A stretch of 64,000 bases of DNA, taken from Acidobacteria bacterium RIFCSPLOWO2_12_FULL_66_21. GTDB taxonomy: Bacteria > Acidobacteriota > Vicinamibacteria > Vicinamibacterales > 2-12-FULL-66-21. The position numbers and the translations under genes are program-made. Numbering within the stretch: the stretch's first letter is position 1; every line of letters begins with the position of its first letter. Under the pieces are notes generated by a model that was not told where the DNA came from, did no database searches, and saw nothing but the letters and a program-made list of their open reading frames with translations. The stretch spans positions 1-64,000 of the forward strand of contig MELC01000041.1 of NCBI GenBank assembly GCA_001767455.1. Direction: 5' to 3'. Below are positions 34,800 through 47,368 of the stretch, one piece after another.

Positions 34800-35351
34800 A
34801 TGACGAGAGCTCAGCTTCGCATCGTGCCCGTCGCCGCCGGAGCACAACGCGTCGACCTCGTCGAGTCGATCCGTCGCGCAGAGCCGGGGGCCGAGCCGCG
34901 CCTGTACGCGGCGTTCGGACCGCGGGTGCAGCATCTTGCCGGCCGGTACGGGCGCTTTGGCCGCGTGGCCGCCGAGCTGCGCTCGGAGGTGATGCTCCGG
35001 GTGCTGACGACGATCCGATCCGGACGCGTGTCGGCCGGGGAGCCGCTCGCCGGGTTCGTGCTCAAAACGGCGCGCGACGTCATACGGGAGTTCGCCCGGC
35101 AGTTGAATCGGCGCGCGGGCCCGGTGCAGGCCCAAGTCAGCTCCGTTGACGCCGACGCGCGCGCCGTGGGGGCCCTGCGGGAGGCGATCCAGGGGTTCGG
35201 CGATACGGACTGCGCGTTTCTCCGGATGCACTACTACGAGGACTTGCCCCATCGGGAAATCGCGCGGCGTCTCGGCGTCGGGGTCGAGCGCGTCCGCCGG
35301 ATCGAGTCGCGGACGCTCGCAGAGTTCCACGCCGCATACGGCGGGCGGTGA
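34800..35351 (+). CDS. ECF-like sigma factor of the CHAT operon
   Basis: This 183-residue sigma-70-like factor has region 2 elements (EPRLYAAFGPRVQHLAGRYG; RVAAELRSEVMLRVLTTI; LAGFVLKTARDVIREFARQL) and a region 4 helix-turn-helix (DTDCAFLRMHYYEDLPHREI; ARRLGVGVERVRRIESRTLA). It is the first gene of a set with a zinc-finger membrane protein and a TPR-CHAT protease. Region 2 is divergent, so it may recognise its own promoter class. The spacer before the next gene is a dispersed repeat. Confidence 0.82.
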   Translation: MTRAQLRIVPVAAGAQRVDLVESIRRAEPGAEPRLYAAFGPRVQHLAGRYGRFGRVAAELRSEVMLRVLTTIRSGRVSAGEPLAGFVLKTARDVIREFARQLNRRAGPVQAQVSSVDADARAVGALREAIQGFGDTDCAFLRMHYYEDLPHREIARRLGVGVERVRRIESRTLAEFHAAYGGR

Positions 35352-35530
35352 ACGCGAACGAAGCGGAGCGAGCTGCGAGGAGCGAGCGCGGCGAAGTGAG
35401 CTTGGCGGGGTGCCCGCCTTCGCAACCGCCGGGCCAACCCGTCGCTTCGGCGAGGCAAGCGGATCGAAGAAAGCAAGAGCGCGAGCGTGGCGGAACGAAG
35501 CAAGCTTGGCGGGGTGCAGGGGCACCGCCT
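35352..35530. repeat. Dispersed GAGCGAAGCGAGC-type repeat spacer
   Basis: The gap between the sigma and anti-sigma genes is occupied by repeat-like sequence with two copies of AGCTTGGCGGGGTGC (near 35399 and 35504) and several GAGCGAGC-like words. It resembles fragments of the dispersed repeats at 29717 and 30887. I see no gene in it. Confidence 0.5.
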
Positions 35531-35538
35531 ATCAAAAA

Positions 35539-36261
35539 ATGACTCACGACGAGATCGAGCGCTCCGATATCCTGGACCGCTACGCACGCGGCGAGCTGTC
35601 CGGCACCGAGCGCGACGAGGTCGAAGCGCACTACTTCGGCTGCGACGCCTGCTTCGAGCGCGTGCAGGACGCCGCGCGGTTGAAGGGCGCCGTGCGCGCG
35701 GCCGTCGACGATGCCTGGCTCGCGGGATCGGCGCGCGGGATGACCTCGCCGGTCCCGACGAAGTGGGCGTTCGTGCCCGTGGCCGCCTCGCTCCTGCTCG
35801 TGACGGCGTTGGGCTGGCTCGCGCTGTTGCGCGTACCGCAACTGCAGCAGGAAGCCGCGGACGCGCGCACCGAGCGGGACGCGGTGCTGGCGCGTGCGAG
35901 GGTGACCACGCCGCCGCCGCCGGCCGAACCGGAGGCCAATGTCCCGGTCGCCATCCTCCAGGCGGAGCGGAGCACGGGCGCGCCCGCCGTGCTGACGGTG
36001 TCGCGGTCGGCGAGCCACGTGCTGCTCTGGATTGACGCGCCCGGAGTCGGCGACGGCGCGCGTCTGACCATTCGCTCGGCCGTCGGGGCGGATCGAGTGC
36101 AGATCCCCGCGCTGCGCCGCAACAACGAAGGCGCCTTTGTCGCGAGCGTGCCGTCCGCCTTGCTTCCTCCCGACACGTACCGAGTGCGGCTGTTTCGCTC
36201 CTCGTCTCCTGACGCGCCGCTCGCGGCCGAGTACCTGCTGCGGGTCGTCGCGGGGCAGTAG
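35539..36261 (+). CDS. Membrane anti-sigma factor with zinc-finger domain
   Basis: This 240-residue protein has an N-terminal zinc-binding anti-sigma domain with His31, Cys35 and Cys38 (EAHYFGCDACFERV). One membrane helix follows at about 76-98 (WAFVPVAASLLLVTALGWLA), then a short coiled coil and a periplasmic beta-rich domain (ILQAERSTGAPAVLTVSRSA; PPDTYRVRLFRS). The topology is that of anti-sigma factors controlled by periplasmic proteolysis. The stop codon overlaps the GTG start of the CHAT gene by one base, so the two are translationally coupled. The start at 35539 follows the spacer repeat. Confidence 0.85.
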   Translation: MTHDEIERSDILDRYARGELSGTERDEVEAHYFGCDACFERVQDAARLKGAVRAAVDDAWLAGSARGMTSPVPTKWAFVPVAASLLLVTALGWLALLRVPQLQQEAADARTERDAVLARARVTTPPPPAEPEANVPVAILQAERSTGAPAVLTVSRSASHVLLWIDAPGVGDGARLTIRSAVGADRVQIPALRRNNEGAFVASVPSALLPPDTYRVRLFRSSSPDAPLAAEYLLRVVAGQ

Positions 36262-38975
36262 TGCGTCAGCCCAGCATCCTCAGCCGGCTTGGCGCGGCGG
36301 TGCTGGCCGCGGCGGCCATCATCGGTCTGGGGGGCTTCGCCCCGCCAGACGTCCGGGGGCGCCCGCTCGCGGGGACCCAACGATCGCCACTCCGCTCGCG
36401 CGGCACACTCACTTCGTTCGTTCGCTCCGGTCCTGCGGCTCGCGGCACGGCCCGCCAGACGCCAGCGTCGACCCAGGAGACCTCCAAGGCAATCGATGCG
36501 CTGCTCGCGAAATCGGCCGAGGCCCAGGTCCGGGGCGAGTTCGCCGAGATGCAGCAGGCAGCCGAGCGCGCGCTCGATCTGAGTCGCGCGTCCGGCGATC
36601 CGCTTCGAACCGCGCGCGCCCTTCTCGCGATAGCCACGTCGAAGTTCTACCAGTCGAAGATCGTGGACGCGGTTCCGCTCCTGCGCGAGGGGCTGCCGCT
36701 CGCCGTCGCCGCGGGCGACCGGAAGCTGGAGGCGCGGTATTACAACGGGCTCGGCCTCAACCTGCGCGAGCTCGGTGAGCACGAAGAGGCCGTCGATTAC
36801 CTGCGGCGGGGCCTCGAGCTCCAGCGCGCCGAGGGCGATCGGCTGGAGCAGAGCCGCGTGCTGCGCAACATCGCCGTGCTCTACTGGATGCTGGGCGACA
36901 CCGAGCGTGCCGGACTGAACGCGCGGCAGGCGCACGCGCTGGCGGTCCAGGCGGGCGACGTGATGTTCCAGAAGCTGACGCTGGAGACCGTCGCCATTCA
37001 GCAGCTCGCGGCCGACGATCCGGACGCCTCGGTCGAGACCCTCAACCGCGCGCTCGGTCTGCCGCCGACGCCGCAGGCGCCGCTCATCGACATGGAGGTG
37101 CTGGGCAACCTCGCCGCCGCCGAGCTCGCGCGCGGCCGTTACGACGCCGCCGTCGCGACCGCGACGCGATCGCTCGACGTGCCGCAGAGCAGCGGATACC
37201 CGTTCGGCCGCGCCGTCATGTACGGGATTGTCGGCCAGAGCTGGTACCGGCTTGGTCGAATGGACGAGGCGCTCCGGTGGCTGATGAAGGCGCGTGAGTC
37301 GTGGCGCACGCTCGGCGAAGCCGTGCATCCCACGCGCGCGCTGGAGACGGAGCTGTGGATCGCCCGGGTGCTGCGCCGCCAGGGGGAGAAGCGCGCGGCG
37401 CTCGATATCGACCTGGCACTGCTCGACGGCATGGACCGCGCCCTGGCGAGCACGAACGTCAACGACGTGTCGCGCGCGACCGCGGCGACCACGGCAGCGG
37501 ACCTGTACACCGAGACGATCGGTCTGCTGCTCGAACAAGGACGGATCGAGGACGGGTTCGACGCCTCGGAGCGTTACCACGCGCGCTCGTTCCTCAGCAC
37601 GCTGGCCGAATCGCGCAGCGGGGCGGCGCGCGCGCTGACGGCCGGCCAGCGCACGCGCGAGGCGGCGTTGGCCTCGCGCGCCTCCGGAGTGCAGAAGCAG
37701 TTGTGGGACCCGGCGCTCCCAGCCCCGGCGCGCGCGTCGCTGACTCGCGACCTGGCGGCCATCGACGACGAATTCGACGCCCTGCGGCGCGAGATCCGCC
37801 GCAGCAATCCGAAATATGCGAGCGTCAGGTACCCGGCGCTCGCCACCGCCGCGGAACTGATCGCCGCACAGCCGCGCGGCTCGGTCCTCCTGTCGTTCGT
37901 GCTCGGCGACGAGCAGTCGTTCGCATGGGCGATCACCGGCCGCGGCATCACCGCCGCGACGCTGCCGGCGCGGTCCGCGCTCGAGTCGCAGGTTGGCGCG
38001 TACCGGCGGATGATCGCCCGCAGGCCGTCGATCTCGGGACGCGCGGCGCGGCGCGCGTCGATCGAACGCGCCGGACGCGCCCTCTATCACACGCTCATCG
38101 CACCGCTCGCTCCCGCCTTCGCCGGCGCCACTCGCGCCGTCATCATCCCCGACGGAGCGCTGCACCTGCTGCCCTTCGAGGCGCTCGTGCCCGAAGGGAC
38201 CGGGACGCGCCACCGGTGGTGGGTGGAGCAGGTCGCGATCAGCGAAGCCCCGTCAGCCTCGGCGCTGAAGACGATCGATGAGGCGCGCCGCGTGCGTCCG
38301 ACCTTGCAGCTTCTTGCCGTCGGGGCGCCCGTATATCCGGAGAGCGGGACGCAAGGGTCCGCGAGCCGCGAGACCCACATGGCCGACAGCGGGCTGCAGC
38401 TCGTCGCGCTGCCGTTCTCGCGCGTGGAACTCGAGGGGATCGCGTCGCTCTATCCGGCACGCGCGCGGCGGCTTTACGCGGGCGGCGCCGCCACCGAGGA
38501 TGCCGTCAAGCAGGCCGCGCCCGGCGGCTACCGGTACGTGCACTTCGCGACCCATGCGTACGTCAACGACGTCCGCCCCAGCCGATCGGGCATCGTCCTC
38601 GACATGAACCGCAAGGCAAAAGAGGACGGCGTGCTGCAGGCTGGCGAGGTCATGGCGCTGGAGCTGAACGCGGATTTGGTCACGCTGTCCGCGTGCAGCA
38701 CCGGGCTCGGCAAGGTTCTGAGGGGAGAGGGAATCCTGGGTCTCGTCCAGGCCTTCCTCTATGCAGGCTCCAGGTCGGTCACGGCCAGCCTGTGGAACGT
38801 CAACGACGCGGCGACGGCGACACTGATGCGGGAGTTCTACTCGGGCCTGCGCCGGGAGCTGCCGCGTGACGCCGCGCTGCGCGGCGCGAAGCTGAGGCTC
38901 GCGAGATCGGCCGACCCCCGTCTGAACGACCCATACTACTGGGCGCCGTTCGTGCTCGTGGGAAGCAGCAAGTAG
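36261..38975 (+). CDS. Exported TPR-CHAT caspase-like protease
   Basis: The product is 904 residues. The N-terminus is hydrophobic (LGAAVLAAAAIIGLGGFA), a signal peptide or anchor. TPR repeats span about 75-450 (LEARYYNGLGLNLRELGEHE; AVDYLRRGLELQRAEGDR; YGIVGQSWYRLGRMDEALRW). The CHAT domain fills the C-terminal third, with the catalytic dyad His765 in YVHFATHAYVND and Cys812 in LVTLSACSTGLGK. CHAT proteases cleave specific protein partners. It is translationally coupled to a membrane anti-sigma gene whose periplasmic domain would be in the same compartment. Residues about 24-60 are encoded by a dispersed repeat. The GTG start overlaps the upstream TAG. Confidence 0.93.
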   Translation: MRQPSILSRLGAAVLAAAAIIGLGGFAPPDVRGRPLAGTQRSPLRSRGTLTSFVRSGPAARGTARQTPASTQETSKAIDALLAKSAEAQVRGEFAEMQQAAERALDLSRASGDPLRTARALLAIATSKFYQSKIVDAVPLLREGLPLAVAAGDRKLEARYYNGLGLNLRELGEHEEAVDYLRRGLELQRAEGDRLEQSRVLRNIAVLYWMLGDTERAGLNARQAHALAVQAGDVMFQKLTLETVAIQQLAADDPDASVETLNRALGLPPTPQAPLIDMEVLGNLAAAELARGRYDAAVATATRSLDVPQSSGYPFGRAVMYGIVGQSWYRLGRMDEALRWLMKARESWRTLGEAVHPTRALETELWIARVLRRQGEKRAALDIDLALLDGMDRALASTNVNDVSRATAATTAADLYTETIGLLLEQGRIEDGFDASERYHARSFLSTLAESRSGAARALTAGQRTREAALASRASGVQKQLWDPALPAPARASLTRDLAAIDDEFDALRREIRRSNPKYASVRYPALATAAELIAAQPRGSVLLSFVLGDEQSFAWAITGRGITAATLPARSALESQVGAYRRMIARRPSISGRAARRASIERAGRALYHTLIAPLAPAFAGATRAVIIPDGALHLLPFEALVPEGTGTRHRWWVEQVAISEAPSASALKTIDEARRVRPTLQLLAVGAPVYPESGTQGSASRETHMADSGLQLVALPFSRVELEGIASLYPARARRLYAGGAATEDAVKQAAPGGYRYVHFATHAYVNDVRPSRSGIVLDMNRKAKEDGVLQAGEVMALELNADLVTLSACSTGLGKVLRGEGILGLVQAFLYAGSRSVTASLWNVNDAATATLMREFYSGLRRELPRDAALRGAKLRLARSADPRLNDPYYWAPFVLVGSSK
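36330..36440. repeat. Dispersed repeat copy inside the CHAT gene
   Basis: The words GGCTTCGCCCCGCCAG, GGGGACCCAACGATCGCC and CTCCGCTCGCGCGGC appear in the same order as in the reverse complement of 30887-31015. Here they are translated, just after the signal peptide, as GGFAPPDVRGRPLAG followed by TQRSPLRSRGTLTSF. Confidence 0.65.
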
Positions 38976-40421: not shown

Positions 40422-42173
40422 TCAGCCCGCAACGAGCATCGGGCGCGCGCGCGTGCGCGGAAAATCGATCACGAAGGTCGTGCCCTTGCCGACTTCGCTC
40501 GTGACCGTCACATTGCCGCCCAGCTGTTCCACGATCTTCTTGGAGATGGCGAGGCCGAGCCCGAGGCCGCGGCGCTTGGTCGTCATGAAGTCCTCGAAGA
40601 TCGCGCCGAGCCGCTGCTGCGGGATGCCGCAGCCGGTGTCGTCCACGCGGACCTGCACGCGATCGCCGTGCAGGTCGGTGCTGACGACGATCCGGCCGCC
40701 CGGCGCCGTCGCCTGGATCGCGTTGAGTATCAGGTTGCGGTACACGCGGCCGAGCGCGAAGACGTCCCCTTCGATGTAGCCGGGCTGGTCCGACAGCTCC
40801 GTCTGGAGCGTCAGGCCCGCCGTCTCCGCGTGCGGCTGCATCGCCTCGACGCTCTCGGCCACGCTGCGGTTGACGTCCACGACGAATCGCTCGAGCGGGA
40901 TCGGCCGCGCGATGTTGCGGAGGTCGTCGAGCACGCGCTTGATGATCACGAGCTCGCGGTCGACCGTTCGCTTGAACGTCTCGCGGTACTCCGCGTCCTC
41001 GAACATCTTCTGGATCAGCTTGCAGCTGTTGCCGATGTTCTGAATCGGGTGCGACAGGTCGTGCACCAGGCCGGCGGCAATCCGACCGAACATCGCCTGC
41101 CGCTCCTGCTTGCGGACGTCCTCCTGCAGCTCGACGAGGCGATCGGTCATCGAATTGAAGGCGGTGCCGAGCTGCATGATTTCGTCGTTGCCCGAGAGCG
41201 CCACCCGCGCGTCGAGCTTGCCATCGGCGATGGCGCGCGTCACCTTCGTCAGCGCGAAAATGCGGCTGATGAACGACCGCGCCCAGAACCAGCCGACGAC
41301 GAGCGTGCCGAGCAGCGCGACGCCAATCGCGATGATCAGCTGCCGCTGCAGCTCCGAGTAGACGGCGAACGCCTCGCTGGTCGGCTGCTCGACGATGACC
41401 GTCCAGTCCGGCCGCGAGACCTGCGCGATGACCGCGAGGATCTCGCGGCCGCGCGCATCGGTGAACTTCTTCGGAGCGGGCTCGGTTCCCTCGCGCATGG
41501 CCGCGGCCAGCCGCCGCTCGGACTCGGAGGCCTTGGCGCCGCTCGCGATGAGCCCCTTGTCGTTGGGATTGCCGTGAGCGATGAGGGTGTCGCTGCCGTC
41601 CATCAGCAGCGCGTAGCCTTCCGAGCCCACGTGGATGCTGTCGACCGTCCGCCACAGTTCCTCGAGCGAGATCTCCGCCACGATCCAGCTCGGGTCCTGC
41701 AGACCGCCGCCGAGCGGCACGGCGATCGTCGTCGTCGGCAGCGAATCCGAATCGAGATGCGGCGGGGCGACGAAAAACCCTTCCGCGCTCCCCGACTGCG
41801 GCAGGTCCGCCAGGTCCGCGTCGGGCTGCGCGATCCGGCTCGTCGCGAGCACGCGGCCGCCCGCGTCGAGCAGCGTGATGTGACGGAACTCCCTGAAGTC
41901 GAGAACGTGGTTGCGCAGGATGCGGGTCTGCTGCCAGGGCTCGAGCTGCGTGTTGCGCAGCTCGGTGCCGATCGAGGTCAGGACGCGGAGGTTGTTCTCG
42001 AAGTAGAGGCTGATGCGCTTGGCGATCTGCTGGGCGACGGCCAGGTTCCCCTTGGCGACCGACTCCTCGGTGCCGGCGCGGAGCGATCGGAAGGACACGA
42101 AGCCATAGAGCACGAGCGGCAGGACCGCGGCCGTGACGATGAGCAGGACGAAGCGGGATGTGATGCTCTTCAT
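40422..42173 (-). CDS. Sensor histidine kinase with Cache-like sensor and HAMP
   Basis: The protein is 583 residues. TM1 (FVLLIVTAAVLPLVLYGFVS) is followed by a periplasmic double-Cache-like sensor to about residue 275, TM2 (LIIAIGVALLGTLVVGWFWA) and HAMP (LTKVTRAIADGKLDARV; GNDEIMQLGTAFNSMTDRL). The phosphoacceptor histidine is in AGLVHDLSHPIQNIGN, and the ATPase has the N box LILNAIQA, DDTGCGIP, and RGLGLGLAISKKIVEQLGG. The start overlaps the stop of the solute-binding protein gene (ATGA), so the two are translationally coupled. Its likely partner is the NtrC-type regulator at 45980-47368. Confidence 0.92.
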   Translation of the reverse strand: MKSITSRFVLLIVTAAVLPLVLYGFVSFRSLRAGTEESVAKGNLAVAQQIAKRISLYFENNLRVLTSIGTELRNTQLEPWQQTRILRNHVLDFREFRHITLLDAGGRVLATSRIAQPDADLADLPQSGSAEGFFVAPPHLDSDSLPTTTIAVPLGGGLQDPSWIVAEISLEELWRTVDSIHVGSEGYALLMDGSDTLIAHGNPNDKGLIASGAKASESERRLAAAMREGTEPAPKKFTDARGREILAVIAQVSRPDWTVIVEQPTSEAFAVYSELQRQLIIAIGVALLGTLVVGWFWARSFISRIFALTKVTRAIADGKLDARVALSGNDEIMQLGTAFNSMTDRLVELQEDVRKQERQAMFGRIAAGLVHDLSHPIQNIGNSCKLIQKMFEDAEYRETFKRTVDRELVIIKRVLDDLRNIARPIPLERFVVDVNRSVAESVEAMQPHAETAGLTLQTELSDQPGYIEGDVFALGRVYRNLILNAIQATAPGGRIVVSTDLHGDRVQVRVDDTGCGIPQQRLGAIFEDFMTTKRRGLGLGLAISKKIVEQLGGNVTVTSEVGKGTTFVIDFPRTRARPMLVAG

Positions 42174-43732
42174 CGCGCCGCTCGTCGTGTCGGCTCGACG
42201 GGCCGCCACTGCCAGATGTTCGCGAAAATGTCCAGGTTGGTCCGGTCGCCGAGGCTGAAGCGCGCGTCGACCGCGCGGGTCGTCTCCTGCCACGCGAGGA
42301 ACACCGCGGGCGCGTCCTCGTAGAAACGCTGCTGGAGATCGGCGACAGCCGTCCGCGTCTCGTTGTCCGACCGCGCCGCGCGCAGGCGCTCCAGAATCGC
42401 GTCCGCTCCGGCGTACCCGGAATCCTGCATGAGCGGGATGCCGGGCTGCGGCGAGTGCCAGTAGCGGTACGTCCAATCGAACGACCGTCCGCTGTTCACC
42501 TGGAACAGGTAGGCGTCGAAATCGTTCGCGCCGATGCGCTTGATGAGGTTGCGCAGCGTGGCGGGTTCGAGCGCCATGTCGACGCCGACGTCCGAGAGTT
42601 GGCGCTGCAGCAGCAGCGCGATCCGCTCGAATTGCGGGTCTTCGCTCCAGAAAAGGCACGTGAAATGGAAGCGGCTGGCCATCTGTCCGGGCGCGGCGCT
42701 CCGGATCGGCAGACCCGCTGCATCCAGCCGCAGCCGCGCGGCCACCGGGTTGTAGGTGTAGCGGCGCGCGGCCGTGCTGTAGGCCCAGTGGGACGGCCAG
42801 ACGGGATCGTCGGCGATGCGGCCGTGGCTGCGCATCGCGTCGCCCACGATCTGGCTGCGGTCGATCGCCTCGGTGACCGCGCGGCGCGCCTCGACGCGGC
42901 CGAGAATCGGGTGCCGGAGGTTGAAGACGAGGGGGATGTAGAAGGGCTTGAGCGATGAGTAGGTCTCGATCTCCGAGGACCCCTGGAGGAAATCGACCGA
43001 TTCCCTCGCGACCTCCTGCACCATGTCGACCTCGCCGCGCATCATGGCCGCCCAGGCGCTGCGCTGCGATTCATACGTGGCGATTTCGACGCGTTCGATC
43101 GCCGGGACGCCGCGGTAGTAGCGCCCGTAGCGCTCGAACTCGAGGTGCGGGACGCGCGTCACGATCCGAAACGGCCCCGTGCCGACGTTCGGATCGTCGC
43201 TCGCGACGATCGTCGTGTTGGTCAGCTCGTTCAGAAGAAACGCATCCGGCCGGCTGAGGCGGAGCACGATCGTCCTGTCGTCGGACGCCTCGACGCTCTC
43301 CACGTAGGCGAACCCGCCGAAGTAGTCGGTGTTCCGTGCCTCCTTCAATGCTCGCTGCAGAACTGGCAGGACTTCATCCGAGGTGACCGGACGCCCGTCG
43401 TGGAACGTGGCTCCGGCGCGCAGGAAGAGCCGCAACGTTCGCCCGTCGTCCTCCCACGTCCAGCTCTCGGCAAGTCTGGGCGTGGGACGCCCATTCCACC
43501 CGACAGCGATCAGCGAGTCGGCAAAGAGCATGTTGATGAGAACGGGCAGACCGCTCTGCAGCGACGTTCCGCCGAGGCCCATTCCGATCCGGAAGCTGAC
43601 CTGGGACTGCGGCCGGGCCGTTTCGCGACGGCAGGCGCCCGATGCCATGAGACCGGCGCCCGCCAGACACACGACCAGCACGCACCGCACGAGCGCGGAT
43701 CGGTCGCATGATCGCCGGCGGCCTTGATTCAT
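42170..43732 (-). CDS. Family 5 extracellular solute-binding protein (peptide-binding type)
   Basis: This 520-residue protein has an N-terminal export signal with a possible lipobox (VCLAGAGLMASGAC). The family 5 (OppA/DppA) pattern follows: PRLAESWTWEDDGRTLRLFL, GATFHDGRPVTSDEVLPVLQ, NVGTGPFRIVTRVPHLEFER, FNLRHPILGRVEARRAVTEA and QRFYEDAPAVFLAWQETT. Such proteins bind peptides or similar ligands in the periplasm. No transporter permease or ATPase is adjacent; the next gene is a coupled sensor kinase, so it may present ligand to the kinase (inference). A TTG three codons upstream is a possible alternative start. Confidence 0.9.
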   Translation of the reverse strand: MNQGRRRSCDRSALVRCVLVVCLAGAGLMASGACRRETARPQSQVSFRIGMGLGGTSLQSGLPVLINMLFADSLIAVGWNGRPTPRLAESWTWEDDGRTLRLFLRAGATFHDGRPVTSDEVLPVLQRALKEARNTDYFGGFAYVESVEASDDRTIVLRLSRPDAFLLNELTNTTIVASDDPNVGTGPFRIVTRVPHLEFERYGRYYRGVPAIERVEIATYESQRSAWAAMMRGEVDMVQEVARESVDFLQGSSEIETYSSLKPFYIPLVFNLRHPILGRVEARRAVTEAIDRSQIVGDAMRSHGRIADDPVWPSHWAYSTAARRYTYNPVAARLRLDAAGLPIRSAAPGQMASRFHFTCLFWSEDPQFERIALLLQRQLSDVGVDMALEPATLRNLIKRIGANDFDAYLFQVNSGRSFDWTYRYWHSPQPGIPLMQDSGYAGADAILERLRAARSDNETRTAVADLQQRFYEDAPAVFLAWQETTRAVDARFSLGDRTNLDIFANIWQWRPVEPTRRAAR

Positions 43733-43824
43733 GTGCGTCAAAATGGAACGGGGCTCGCTCGCGGTCGAGGCCGGACTTTCATTGAGTGGCTCATTATCTC
43801 ACCCGCTGAAGCGCGGGCCGGCCG

Positions 43825-43920
43825 CTACGTGCGCGGCTCCGGCAGTCCCTCGACGACCCACGGGCAGACGGGATTGCTGGACGGAGTCTTGCCGGCCTTC
43901 TTGATGACGATGATCTTCAT
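43825..43920 (-). CDS. Candidate RiPP precursor peptide 3
   Basis: This 31-residue gene is preceded by GAAGAGG eight bases before the ATG. The peptide starts MKIIVIKKAGKTPSSNPV and ends CPWVVEGLPEPRT. It is a near copy of the gene at 43982-44077: 5 differences in 96 bases, and only residues 4 and 31 change. The basic N-terminus would be the leader and the Cys-Pro-Trp-containing C-terminal half the core. It lies downstream of a radical SAM/SPASM maturase on the same strand and just before the solute-binding protein gene. Too short for routine gene callers. Confidence 0.8.
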   Translation of the reverse strand: MKIIVIKKAGKTPSSNPVCPWVVEGLPEPRT

Positions 43921-43981
43921 GTGAGTGTCCTCTTCAGGAATCTGGTGACGATGGAATCGAATGATGAATGCCGGCCGCGCG

Positions 43982-44077
43982 CTAGTTGCGCGGCTCCGGC
44001 AGTCCCTCGACGACCCACGGGCAGACGGGGTTGCTGGACGGGGTCTTGCCGGCCTTCTTGATGACGGTGATCTTCAT
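43982..44077 (-). CDS. Candidate RiPP precursor peptide 2
   Basis: This 31-residue gene has GAGGAG seven bases before the ATG at 44077; a second ATG two codons upstream is too close to the ribosome-binding site. The peptide starts MKITVIKKAGKTPSSNPV and ends CPWVVEGLPEPRN. The duplicate at 43825-43920 keeps the leader and core unchanged, apart from residues 4 and 31, which argues for selection on the peptide. The shared PW(V/L)V(E/D) motif with the 27-residue gene upstream marks the probable modification site. Confidence 0.82.
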   Translation of the reverse strand: MKITVIKKAGKTPSSNPVCPWVVEGLPEPRN

Positions 44078-44139
44078 GTGCATGCTCCTCACTGATTCAG
44101 TTGCCGAAAGGTGACGGGTGACAGTGGCGAGCCGCGCCT

Positions 44140-44223
44140 TCAGCGCAGGTGCTCGACCGGAACGTCCACCAGCCAGGGGTGCAGCGTTCCCTTCTTCTTG
44201 TCCGTCTGCTTGCCGTTCTTCAT
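44140..44223 (-). CDS. Candidate RiPP precursor peptide 1
   Basis: This 27-residue gene starts 31 bp after the maturase stop codon, with GAGGAG six bases before the ATG. The peptide has a Lys-rich leader (MKNGKQTDKKKGTL) and a C-terminal half HPWLVDVPVEHLR. It aligns with the other two peptides only at (C/H)PW(V/L)V(E/D), where they read CPWVVEGLPEPR. Conservation confined to this core, with a divergent leader, suggests a shared maturation site centred on the tryptophan. Confidence 0.78.
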   Translation of the reverse strand: MKNGKQTDKKKGTLHPWLVDVPVEHLR

Positions 44224-44254
44224 GACGTCTCCTCTTGTTGTGAATGACGTGCCG

Positions 44255-45682
44255 CTAGTTGACCGTCTGCAGCTCGGCCGCGGCGGCGTCGCGGGCGAGC
44301 GAGACCAGCCCCGCTTCGAAGCTGGTCTTGTGGCAATTCGGCCGGTTCTTGTCCCCGAGTTCGGCGTGCGCGGCCACGGTGCAGCCGCCGGCGCACACCG
44401 GGATGAACGCGCAGTCGTCGCAGTCCTTCCAGGCGGCGAGCGCCTCGAAGCGTGCCGCCGCGCTCTCGCGCGACGCGTCCCGCCGGCCGTCGATGTGGCC
44501 CGTCGATTCCTTGGCGTCGCCGCTGAATCCAGGGCACGCGTACAGCGCGCCGTCCGGCCCGATCGTATGCGCGTGGCGGCGATGAATCTCGCAGGGGCCC
44601 ATGTGGACGCCGTCGACCGTCGAGAAGCCGCGCTTCGTCGTTTCGTCGCGCAGGAACGACATCTTCTCGTCGACGAAATTACAGTTGTCGCAGATGCTGG
44701 TGCCGCCGCCCGCGGAGGTCATGCACGTGCCGTTGAGCGGCTTGCCCTGGCTTCCGACCACCGTCAGGGGAATCATTCCCTTCGGCGCCACGGGCTTGGG
44801 CTCGCGGATCACCGGCTTGAACGACACGCGCGTGAGCTTGTCGGCGAAGTCCTGCCCGGCGAGGAAGTCGAGCAGCGCCGGATAGCTGTCGACCGAGCCC
44901 TCGTCGAAGTTGCCGCCGATGGCGATCCGGCACTTGCCGGCGACCTGCCGCACGTTGTGGATGATCCTGTCGAAGGTCCCCTGCCCGCCGCGCAGCGGCC
45001 GCATCCTGTTGTGCGTGTCCTTATCGCCGTCGAGCGTGATCTTCACCCCGTCGAGGCCGTACGGCAGCAGCCGGTCCACGACTTCGGCCGTCAGCAGCAG
45101 GCCGTTGGTGATGATGCTCGAGCGCATCCGCACGCCCCGCGCCTCGCATGCCGCCCATAGCCGCTCCGACAGGTAGTAAACGACCGGCAGGTTGAGGAGC
45201 GGCTCGCCGCCAAAAAAAGTCAGCGAAAAGCTCTCGGATCCGAGCCTGTCGAGCTGATCCTCCGTCCACTGTGCGACGCGGGCCGCCGTTTCGAGCGTCA
45301 TCTTCGCCGCGAACCTGTTGTGGTCGCCGTGATCGCCCTGGAAGCAGTAGTCGCAGGCGAAGTTGCACTGCAGCGTCGTCAGCACCGTGACCCGGAGCTG
45401 GTCGTCGTTCTCGCGGACGCTGTGGAAGTAGTCCTCGAGGCGGCGCCGTTCGGCGCCGCGGTCGTCGACGACGAAGCCGTGCTCGGTGAGGGTCGAGAGC
45501 GCGTCGCGCTCGTCGGCCGTGAGCGCCGACTCCGGCGCACCCGCCGCCAGACGGTCGAGAAGGGCCGCAACCTCGCGCGACACGATCAACTGCGCGTCCG
45601 TGAAGGTGTTCATCAGGAACACCTCGTCGCGGTCGGCGACTTCGCCGAGCGGCACACGGACATTGAACATCGAAGGCTGCAT
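44255..45682 (-). CDS. Radical SAM/SPASM peptide maturase
   Basis: The protein is 475 residues. The radical SAM cluster motif is Cys106-x3-Cys110-x2-Cys113 in LQCNFACDYCFQGDHG; FFGGEPLL is the GGE SAM-contact motif. The C-terminal SPASM region has many cysteines for auxiliary clusters (CMTSAGGGTSICDNCNF; GALYACPGF; CDDCAFIPVCAGGC; NRPNCHK). SPASM maturases install thioether or carbon-carbon links on ribosomal peptides. N-terminal residues 1-80 form a separate domain that may bind the leader. The start at 45682 follows GAGGAG; an upstream in-frame extension runs through the regulatory region and is not used. Three tiny peptide genes follow directly. Confidence 0.93.
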   Translation of the reverse strand: MQPSMFNVRVPLGEVADRDEVFLMNTFTDAQLIVSREVAALLDRLAAGAPESALTADERDALSTLTEHGFVVDDRGAERRRLEDYFHSVRENDDQLRVTVLTTLQCNFACDYCFQGDHGDHNRFAAKMTLETAARVAQWTEDQLDRLGSESFSLTFFGGEPLLNLPVVYYLSERLWAACEARGVRMRSSIITNGLLLTAEVVDRLLPYGLDGVKITLDGDKDTHNRMRPLRGGQGTFDRIIHNVRQVAGKCRIAIGGNFDEGSVDSYPALLDFLAGQDFADKLTRVSFKPVIREPKPVAPKGMIPLTVVGSQGKPLNGTCMTSAGGGTSICDNCNFVDEKMSFLRDETTKRGFSTVDGVHMGPCEIHRRHAHTIGPDGALYACPGFSGDAKESTGHIDGRRDASRESAAARFEALAAWKDCDDCAFIPVCAGGCTVAAHAELGDKNRPNCHKTSFEAGLVSLARDAAAAELQTVN

Positions 45683-45770: not shown

Positions 45771-45786
45771 TGCAACGGGTATTCCG
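45771..45786 (-). promoter_or_regulatory. Candidate sigma-54 promoter of the maturase operon
   Basis: Read on the minus strand the site is CGGAAT-ACCCG-TTGCA: a GG doublet and a GC doublet separated by exactly ten bases, with a consensus -12 box (TTGCA) and a degenerate -24 box. It lies about 90 bp upstream of the maturase ATG. The neighbouring upstream gene encodes a sigma-54 activator, which supports the assignment. Confidence 0.45.
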
Positions 45787-45803: not shown

Positions 45804-45874
45804 CAAAGAGTCGTATCGCCGAGCTCGGCGTCAGGCGGAGGCCGAAAAATACAGATCTGTGATGCGACTCTTTG
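45804..45874. promoter_or_regulatory. Inverted repeat, candidate enhancer (UAS) for the NtrC-type activator
   Basis: CAAAGAGTCGTATC (45804-45817) and GATGCGACTCTTTG (45861-45874) are inverted repeats matching at 13 of 14 positions, with a 43-bp spacer. They lie 20-90 bp upstream of the sigma-54-like promoter, where activator dimers usually bind. The spacer includes A+T-rich sequence (GAAAAATACAGATCTG) that could ease looping. Confidence 0.5.
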
Positions 45875-45979
45875 AATCCTGAGGTACCGTGCTGAACCCG
45901 CGCATGAGCTTCGTTCGCGAAGAAGATCGGCCAACTGGTTAGCCGCACCAGCCAATTTTTGGGCCGCCGTCCCCCTTTT

Positions 45980-47368
45980 CTAGGCGCCGCGCAGCTTCCG
46001 TGCGATGTCGCGCAGGTCCAGGCGCGACATCTTGTGTTTGAGGGTGCTCAGGGGAATACCCAGGTAGCGCGAGGTGGCCGTGACGTTCCAGTCCGACTTC
46101 TCCAGCGCCCGCAGGATGAAGTTGCGCTCGAACGTGTCGCACGCCTCCTGGAACCTGGCGTCGGGCACCGTGGGCCCGCCGGAGTCGAGTTTGGCGAAGT
46201 GGTACTCGAGTGGCAGGTCTTCGTCCGTGATCCATTCCTTGTCGCTGACGGCGACGAGGCGCTCGATCAGGTTCTCCAGCTCGCGGATGTTCCCCGGCCA
46301 CCAGTACGACGCGAGGATCTTGAGCGCCGAGCCGGAGATGCCGCGCACCGGCTTCCTGAACTTCGCCTTGTACCGATCCAGGAACAGCCGCGCGAGCTCC
46401 GGCAGATCCTCGATGCGATCCCGCAGCGGCGGCATGCGGATCGGGATCACGTTGATCCGGTAGTAGAGGTCTTCGCGGAAGCGCCCCTCCTTCACGGCCT
46501 TGTCCAGGTCGACGTTGGTCGCGACGATCAGGCGGAACTCGGTCTTGATTGGCTTCGTTCCGCCGACGCGTTCGATTTCCCCCTCCTGGATGGCGCGCAG
46601 CAGCTTGGCCTGGAGGTCGAATCGCAGATCGCCGATTTCGTCGAGGAAGAGCGTGCCGCCGGCGGCCAGCTCGAACTTGCCGAGCTGCTGCTTGTGCGCC
46701 CCGGTGAATGCGCCGCGCTCGTGGCCGAAGAGCGTGCTTTCGACGAGCTCGTGCGGGATCGCCGACAGGTTCACCGCGATGAACGCCTCCGATCCGCGCC
46801 CGGACTCGCGGTGCAGCAGGCGCGCCAGGAGCTCCTTGCCGGTACCGCTTTCGCCGAGGATGAGCACCGTGGCGGACAGCTTCGCCACCTTTTGCACCAG
46901 ATCGACGATGTCGCGAATCTGGCGGCTCGGGCCGATGAGGAACTCGCGCTCGCTTTGCTCGGCGACCTGCGCGCTGAGCGTGATGACCTGCCGGTTCAGA
47001 TCCTGCCGCTCGCACGCGTTTCGCACGAGCGAGCGCAGCTCGTCGTAGTCGAAGTTCTTGGTGATGTAGTGGTAGGCGCCGTGCTTCATCGCCTGCACGG
47101 CCGTCTCGACCTCGTTGATGGCCGAGATCATGATGCACTCGATGAGGCTGTAGTTCTCCTTGACGATCTTCAGCACGTCGAAGCCGCTGATGCCGGGCAG
47201 CCGCACGTCGAGCAGGATCAGGTCGACGTCTTCCTGCTTCAGCAGCGACAGCGCCCCCTCGCCGCTCGAGACCGTCAGTACGCGGTAGTCGCGCTTCAGG
47301 ATGGCCGCGATCGTGTCGCGCATCCCGAGGTCGTCGTCGCAGATGAGAATCGTCTTCGAGCTGGCCAT
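45980..47368 (-). CDS. NtrC-family sigma-54-dependent response regulator
   Basis: The protein is 462 residues. The receiver domain has the acidic pocket CDDD and phosphoacceptor Asp54 in [10 protein letters not shown]. The AAA+ domain has Walker A GESGTGKE (172-179), the sigma-54 contact loop GAFTGA (219-224), Walker [12 protein letters not shown] and the arginine-finger region [15 protein letters not shown] Fis-type helix-turn-helix ends the protein ([20 protein letters not shown]). It should activate sigma-54 promoters when phosphorylated, presumably by the histidine kinase at 40422-42173. A GG-N10-GC site and an inverted repeat sit between it and the maturase gene. Confidence 0.95.

Follow-up and report, generated by a model that had tools for sequence, protein, structure and literature searches.

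A radical SAM/SPASM maturase with small precursor peptides in a candidate signalling operon of the Vicinamibacterales

Described systems closest to the locus

The closest described relatives of the locus studied here are systems built around an RRE-bearing radical SAM/SPASM enzyme, namely the ranthipeptides (freyrasin, from PapA/PapB, and SCIFF, from CteA/CteB) and QhpD. In ranthipeptides, a Cys donor is joined by a non-alpha-carbon thioether to an Asp or Glu (or Thr) acceptor a few residues further on. PapB links a Cys to an Asp or Glu and is not strict about their spacing (PMC9413430). For SCIFF, a Cys32-Thr37 link at +5 was reported and a later study put the link at Thr34 (PMC8326336); the title of a paper cited there links SCIFF-derived ranthipeptides to quorum sensing. 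Relatives of the sensory part of the locus are CuaDSR, a triple of binding protein, kinase and regulator (PMC10384115), and MbnE, a relative of OppA/AppA that binds the RiPP methanobactin (PMC7558416).

The window, i.e., the whole stretch of DNA that was analysed, comprises 64,000 nucleotides of contig MELC01000041.1 from Acidobacteria bacterium RIFCSPLOWO2_12_FULL_66_21, a member of the Vicinamibacterales. Its maturase is an RRE-radical SAM-SPASM enzyme like those of the ranthipeptides and QhpD, and its class I precursors carry C-X4-[DE], for which a ranthipeptide-like chemistry is proposed below. Unlike ranthipeptides, the system has a single Cys per peptide of ~31 residues and a companion class without Cys, and it is set among genes for a binding protein, a kinase and an NtrC-type regulator. 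SCIFF has six Cys in about forty-five residues, whereas nearly all peptides here have one. Ranthipeptides would be expected to have a donor Cys in every precursor, whereas the class II peptides, including precursor A of this locus, have none. Like CuaDSR, the locus combines a solute-binding protein, a histidine kinase and a response regulator; unlike CuaDSR, it also encodes a presumed peptide ligand and the enzyme that would mature it, and its output is of the NtrC/sigma-54 type. With MbnE it shares an OppA/AppA-type periplasmic protein, for which RiPP binding is known in MbnE and proposed here. It differs from the methanobactin system in its regulator and in that no MbnB/C or MbnT was found among the neighbours tested.

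The maturase and its distribution

The maturase gene (44,255–45,682, minus strand) encodes 475 aa with an N-terminal RRE-like domain. Pfam Radical_SAM matched with E 1e-16, and both a CxxxCxxC and a 7-Cys SPASM motif are present. Across 57 orthologues, C106, C110 and C113, as well as C364, C383, C421, C424, C430, C434 and C450, are invariant or nearly so. The nearest solved protein by sequence is CteB, with which the AlphaFold model (pLDDT 75) aligned over residues 4–468 (Z 22.5, 3.7 Å over 382 residues). As CteB bears an RRE and the alignment starts at residue 4, the maturase includes this domain. The fold of TigE, an enzyme of different chemistry, matched nearly as well (Z 21.5). A further trio of cysteines, C320, C331 and C334, lies outside the usual SPASM set and is invariant in all 57 orthologues; it is possibly an extra metal site, in a segment (residues 296–335) that the model renders with pLDDT below 50.

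The sequence-only reading that first singled out this locus had not recognised the core motif as a named RiPP class, and our searches likewise place the maturase and its precursors in no named family. The best NCBIfam model for the enzyme is TIGR04280, the geopeptide maturase, with 258.9 bits against a cut-off of 400, and all 37 orthologues compared matched this best-scoring named enzyme family. The present system is set apart from the geopeptide system by the enzyme score alone. Scores were also low for CefB (193 bits, cut-off 600), TIGR04463 (187 bits, cut-off 525) and the PapB family NF047865 (118.8 bits, cut-off 340). We therefore rejected membership of the geopeptide, PapB, SCIFF and CefB families, as the maturase falls far below the cut-offs. 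None of 396 genomes drawn evenly from the phylum had a TIGR04280 match above cut-off. Two TIGR04280-like loci elsewhere in the phylum (L091 and L092) adjoin ABC transporters and represent a different system. An anti-phage role was considered and dropped, with generic viperin-like radical SAM matches only. NCBIfam has no model for the precursor peptides.

Maturase orthologues with 56–74% identity were found in 66 of 162 Vicinamibacterales genomes, and the 396 genomes of the phylum yielded 19 matches, all 19 in this order. The system is thus confined to Vicinamibacterales among the genomes searched. Plasmids gave only remote SPASM proteins, with ~25% identity or less among the matches listed. 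Downstream sequence was long enough in 55 distinct loci, and in 53 of these an intact precursor gene lies directly 3' of the maturase. One exception, L043, has no precursor gene after the maturase; in the other, L067, the frame is broken by two stops, which reflects either degeneration or poor assembly. In the 900-base stretches that follow the maturase, the pattern of leader plus core was matched 49 times, versus 17 times elsewhere (463 kb, both strands), and close pairs of precursors had a pS of 0.25–0.70 versus a pN of 0.04–0.20, which indicates purifying selection. The three precursor genes of the window are thus real genes and not chance ORFs. The sequence-only reading had predicted many independent loci with a conserved core, which is what these genomes contain, and had named loci without the small genes, or small genes free of purifying selection, as grounds for giving it up; the precursors proved to be both retained and constrained. 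A profile search of the remaining genome found no further precursors (best outside match E 3). Our search of the literature outside subscription journals found no paper that joins radical SAM RiPPs to Vicinamibacterales or that names geopeptides. Taken as a whole, this is very likely a genuine RiPP family, one that is in no NCBIfam or Pfam model.

Precursor peptides and the modified residue

Three precursor genes follow the maturase on the minus strand, each preceded by its own GAGG or GAGGA ribosome-binding site. Precursor A (44,140–44,223) is a class II peptide of 27 aa without Cys (MKNGKQTDKKKGTLHPWLVDVPVEHLR, ending LHPWLVDVPVEHLR). Precursors B (43,982–44,077; MKITVIKKAGKTPSSNPVCPWVVEGLPEPRN; profile match E 3e-12) and C (43,825–43,920; MKIIVIKKAGKTPSSNPVCPWVVEGLPEPRT; E 6.6e-11) are class I peptides of 31 aa that are nearly identical and end in CPWVVEGLPEPR. 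The three genes of 27–31 codons described from the sequence alone are thereby confirmed, as is the different leader of the first.

In 38 diverse class I peptides, Cys is the sole invariant residue, and the leader takes the form MKI-x-[VI]-[VI]-KK. The constant features of the class are one Cys and an Asp or Glu five residues on (C-X4-[DE]). An Asp or Glu stands at +5 in 57 of 61 peptides, a set from which a spurious entry had been dropped and to which two further finds had been added. Pro occupies +1 in 46 of 60 peptides; the same wider set has Trp (36) or Phe (11) at +2 and, in 50 peptides, V, I or L at +4. Nearly all precursor peptides contain a single Cys. The peptides of L075, L099, L079 and L098 have A, C, T and S at +5, respectively, instead of D/E, and keep a Glu at +9. 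In L059 (6578–7165), four nearly identical class I copies are arranged in tandem with a spacing of 162 bp.

These alignments bear on which residue is modified. The motif PW(V/L)V(E/D), put forward as the core by the sequence-only reading, stood in part: the Trp can be replaced, and the constants are the Cys and the D/E at +5. That reading had favoured the Trp as the target, and a Trp or Phe linked as a cyclophane or by another aromatic bond would fit the W or F at +2 of most class I peptides as well as the PWLVD kept by Cys-less class II peptides in 11 loci. However, roughly one in three class I peptides lacks Trp (e.g., CITVVDD, CDFYIDD and CVQMVDD), many carry T, S, V, I, Q, L, C or A at +2, and the core window of several lacks any aromatic residue. 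The Cys, on the other hand, is invariant, and it was lost together with the maturase in the genome described next. An aromatic link is therefore improbable, and the claim for Trp is not supported.

In genome G044 (locus L110), the maturase has been deleted and the binding protein is reduced to a remnant, the kinase gene can no longer be read in a single frame, and the regulator, the sigma-54 promoter and one precursor are kept. The invariant Cys of this leftover precursor (MKKIVTIKKAPTQAKPQGISPIYLDDVPATRKSPH, core QGISPIYLDD) has become Ser. Its leader, the Pro and positions +4 and +5 are retained; of the core pattern, the Cys alone is gone. The replacement of Cys on loss of the maturase points to Cys as the target. 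Although this is a single case, the pattern is what would be expected if the Cys mattered only through the action of the maturase. The class I Cys is thus likely to be the modified residue.

As the maturase resembles CteB, which forms thioethers, PapB makes Cys-Asp/Glu links and a +5 link was reported for SCIFF, a thioether between the Cys and the Asp or Glu at +5 is the most economical proposal for class I. A Cys-Asp/Glu thioether ring, i.e., ranthipeptide chemistry, would be the likeliest product. The A, C, S or T that one family of peptides has at +5 counts against it.

The class I core also resembles that of AgrD (C-X4-[DE][DE]..P), which would allow the Cys to close a thiolactone on the +4 carboxylate after cleavage before D/E. 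One peptide reached 18.7 bits where the cut-off is 19, but it is 1 of 38 and falls below the threshold. A thiolactone would also leave the SPASM enzyme unexplained, and the genome has no AgrB (no PF04647 match). Any likeness to AgrD would hence be convergent, and we consider this bond very improbable next to the thioether.

Class II peptides lack Cys and have a near-invariant PWLVD (PFLVD in one peptide). They occur in 11 loci, always beside class I: this one and L026, L032, L036, L038, L039, L047, L051, L059, L064 and L083, of which the one in L064 is a doubtful reading frame of only 14 residues. The class II peptide is usually the first in the operon. As these peptides have no Cys, thioether chemistry cannot explain them. 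The Cys-less companion thus raises the question of whether it undergoes a second chemistry or acts as an unmodified partner or antagonist.

Sensor genes, promoter and a possible circuit

The sequence-only reading covered the maturase and the peptides correctly but ended at positions 43,825 and 45,682, and so did not reach the genes for the binding protein, the kinase and the regulator, or the promoter. All of these genes lie on the minus strand. Upstream of the maturase, in a position that is kept among loci, an NtrC-family response regulator of 462 aa (45,980–47,368) has receiver, sigma-54 interaction and Fis HTH domains according to Pfam. Downstream of the precursors, a family-5 (OppA/DppA-like) solute-binding protein (42,170–43,741; PF00496, E 3e-61), which is probably a lipoprotein, starts at TTG 43,741 or ATG 43,732. 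A histidine kinase of 583 aa with a periplasmic dCache domain and HAMP (40,422–42,173) was assigned from Pfam, kept position and co-occurrence, and its start overlaps the stop of the binding-protein gene. The order of NtrC regulator, maturase, precursor(s), family-5 binding protein and dCache kinase is the same in every locus that is long enough. Maturase and kinase were found together in 62 genomes, the maturase alone in 4, the kinase alone in 10 and neither in 86 (Fisher p 6e-29). Apart from G044, almost all departures from this pairing are found at or near the end of a contig, as judged from match positions and the lengths of the fetched contigs.

Among the neighbours tested we found neither a permease nor an exporter or protease, which agrees with the earlier remark that no protease or exporter adjoins the peptides. 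The lack of a permease and the adjoining kinase suggest that the binding protein acts as a co-sensor, like that of CuaDSR; judged from genes alone, the locus has linked genes for binding protein, kinase and regulator and no linked ABC permease. The model of the binding protein matches the folds of AppA, NikZ and DppA (Z 34–36). This protein is the fastest-evolving member of the unit, with 31–46% identity where maturases keep 56–74%. Distances between precursor cores track those between binding proteins when the maturase and a neighbour gene are controlled for (partial r 0.14–0.32, p 0.001–0.05; 22–33 loci, without full phylogenetic correction), whereas leader distances do not under the same controls. 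As the core distances also track the maturase equally well in some sets, co-evolution of core and binding protein is suggestive only.

Ligands of family-5 binding proteins further include metals, sugars and opines, which counts against the peptide as the ligand. The modified peptide might be a metallophore, a Cys/Asp peptide that binds metal and is recovered as a complex by the binding protein, as methanobactin is by MbnE. The MbnE precedent, the NikZ-like fold and weak matches of 6 of the 38 peptides to methanobactin models (best E 0.03) are in line with this. Yet each peptide offers one Cys only, the neighbours tested yielded no TonB receptor, permease, exporter or MbnB/C, and the regulator is not a metal-responsive one, which makes a metallophore improbable.

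A sigma-54 (-24/-12) promoter, CGGAATACCCGTTGCA (45,771–45,786, minus strand), starts 104 bp before the ATG of the maturase. The motif was found upstream of the maturase in 43 of 55 orthologues, versus 0.5 expected from shuffled sequences and 1 on the reverse strand. Further upstream, two NtrC-type activator sites, GCCAA-N4-TTGGC, are arranged in tandem 21 bp apart (45,930–45,964, minus strand), with 2 mismatches to a consensus that was derived from orthologous upstream regions. In many loci, such sites occur in tandem (21 bp apart) or singly ~100–220 bp upstream of the promoter. An unstranded inverted repeat, AAAGAGTCGTATC ... GATGCGACTCTTT (45,805–45,873), lies between the activator sites and the promoter. 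In the 6.5-Mb genome, the only match to the tandem array with at most 2 mismatches is the one at 45,930–45,964, and the recognisable target of the regulator is thus its own operon. No credible further member of the regulon emerged from a search with the tandem sites, which gave a single match at 3 mismatches on contig C60.

We propose that the NtrC-type regulator, bound to the tandem GCCAA-N4-TTGGC sites, would switch on the sigma-54 promoter. The transcript would encode the SPASM maturase, one to several precursors of ~30 residues, the family-5 binding protein and the dCache kinase. The N-terminal RRE of the maturase would grip the MKITVIKK-type leader, and the enzyme would cross-link the single class I Cys, most likely through a thioether that joins it to the Asp or Glu at +5 (C-X4-[DE]) and so closes a six-residue ring. 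Once trimmed, this ring peptide may reach the periplasm by a housekeeping route, where its capture by the binding protein would modulate the kinase and hence phosphorylation of the regulator, with feedback on the operon. In this proposal, a small hydrophobic ring would be read by a histidine kinase as in Agr, with the difference that a SPASM enzyme stands in place of AgrB and the leader is unrelated. Its basis is the gene set, gene order and co-occurrence, the promoter and activator sites, the conservation of the core and the loss of Cys with the maturase; the bond, the export route, the identity of the ligand and the sign of the feedback we infer.

A competing explanation is that the modified peptide is an output, such as an antimicrobial or other effector, and that the binding protein and kinase sense a nutrient, a cell-wall peptide or the product of a rival. 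The many ligands of family-5 binding proteins would allow this, and a single target promoter in the genome is what would be expected for a dedicated inducible product. However, the locus has no immunity, protease or exporter gene, and arms-race peptides would not be expected to form a single-copy, vertically inherited unit that is found in one bacterial order and keeps its core. In addition, the deletion in G044 took most of the binding protein along with the maturase but spared promoter and regulator. An effector role is unlikely on this evidence, although more credible than a metallophore.

For the signalling circuit, the chances are evenly balanced that the operon is a self-contained RiPP signalling unit with feedback, and we give about even weight each to a thioether at +5 and to the product acting as the ligand for the binding protein-kinase-NtrC circuit of its own operon. 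To our knowledge, no peptide pheromone has been described for Acidobacteriota. That a radical-SAM-stapled ring peptide serves here as a Gram-negative quorum-type signal that is made, sensed and fed back by one operon is a tentative suggestion, to which we give somewhat less than even weight. With similar caution, the circuit might be regarded as Agr-like and built from unrelated parts. If this is right, peptide communication would extend to a little-studied order, with ligand, maturing enzyme and receptor identified and testable together. Ranthipeptide-type chemistry would then be joined to a sensor of binding protein, kinase and sigma-54 output, and the class I peptides would be a minimal single-ring SPASM substrate.

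The carriers of the operon are soil and groundwater acidobacteria. In the window, the unit is flanked by pyruvate dehydrogenase genes upstream and QueF downstream. Beyond QueF, a zinc-finger (zf-HC2) gene followed by a TPR-CHAT gene lies on the plus strand (35,146–38,972).
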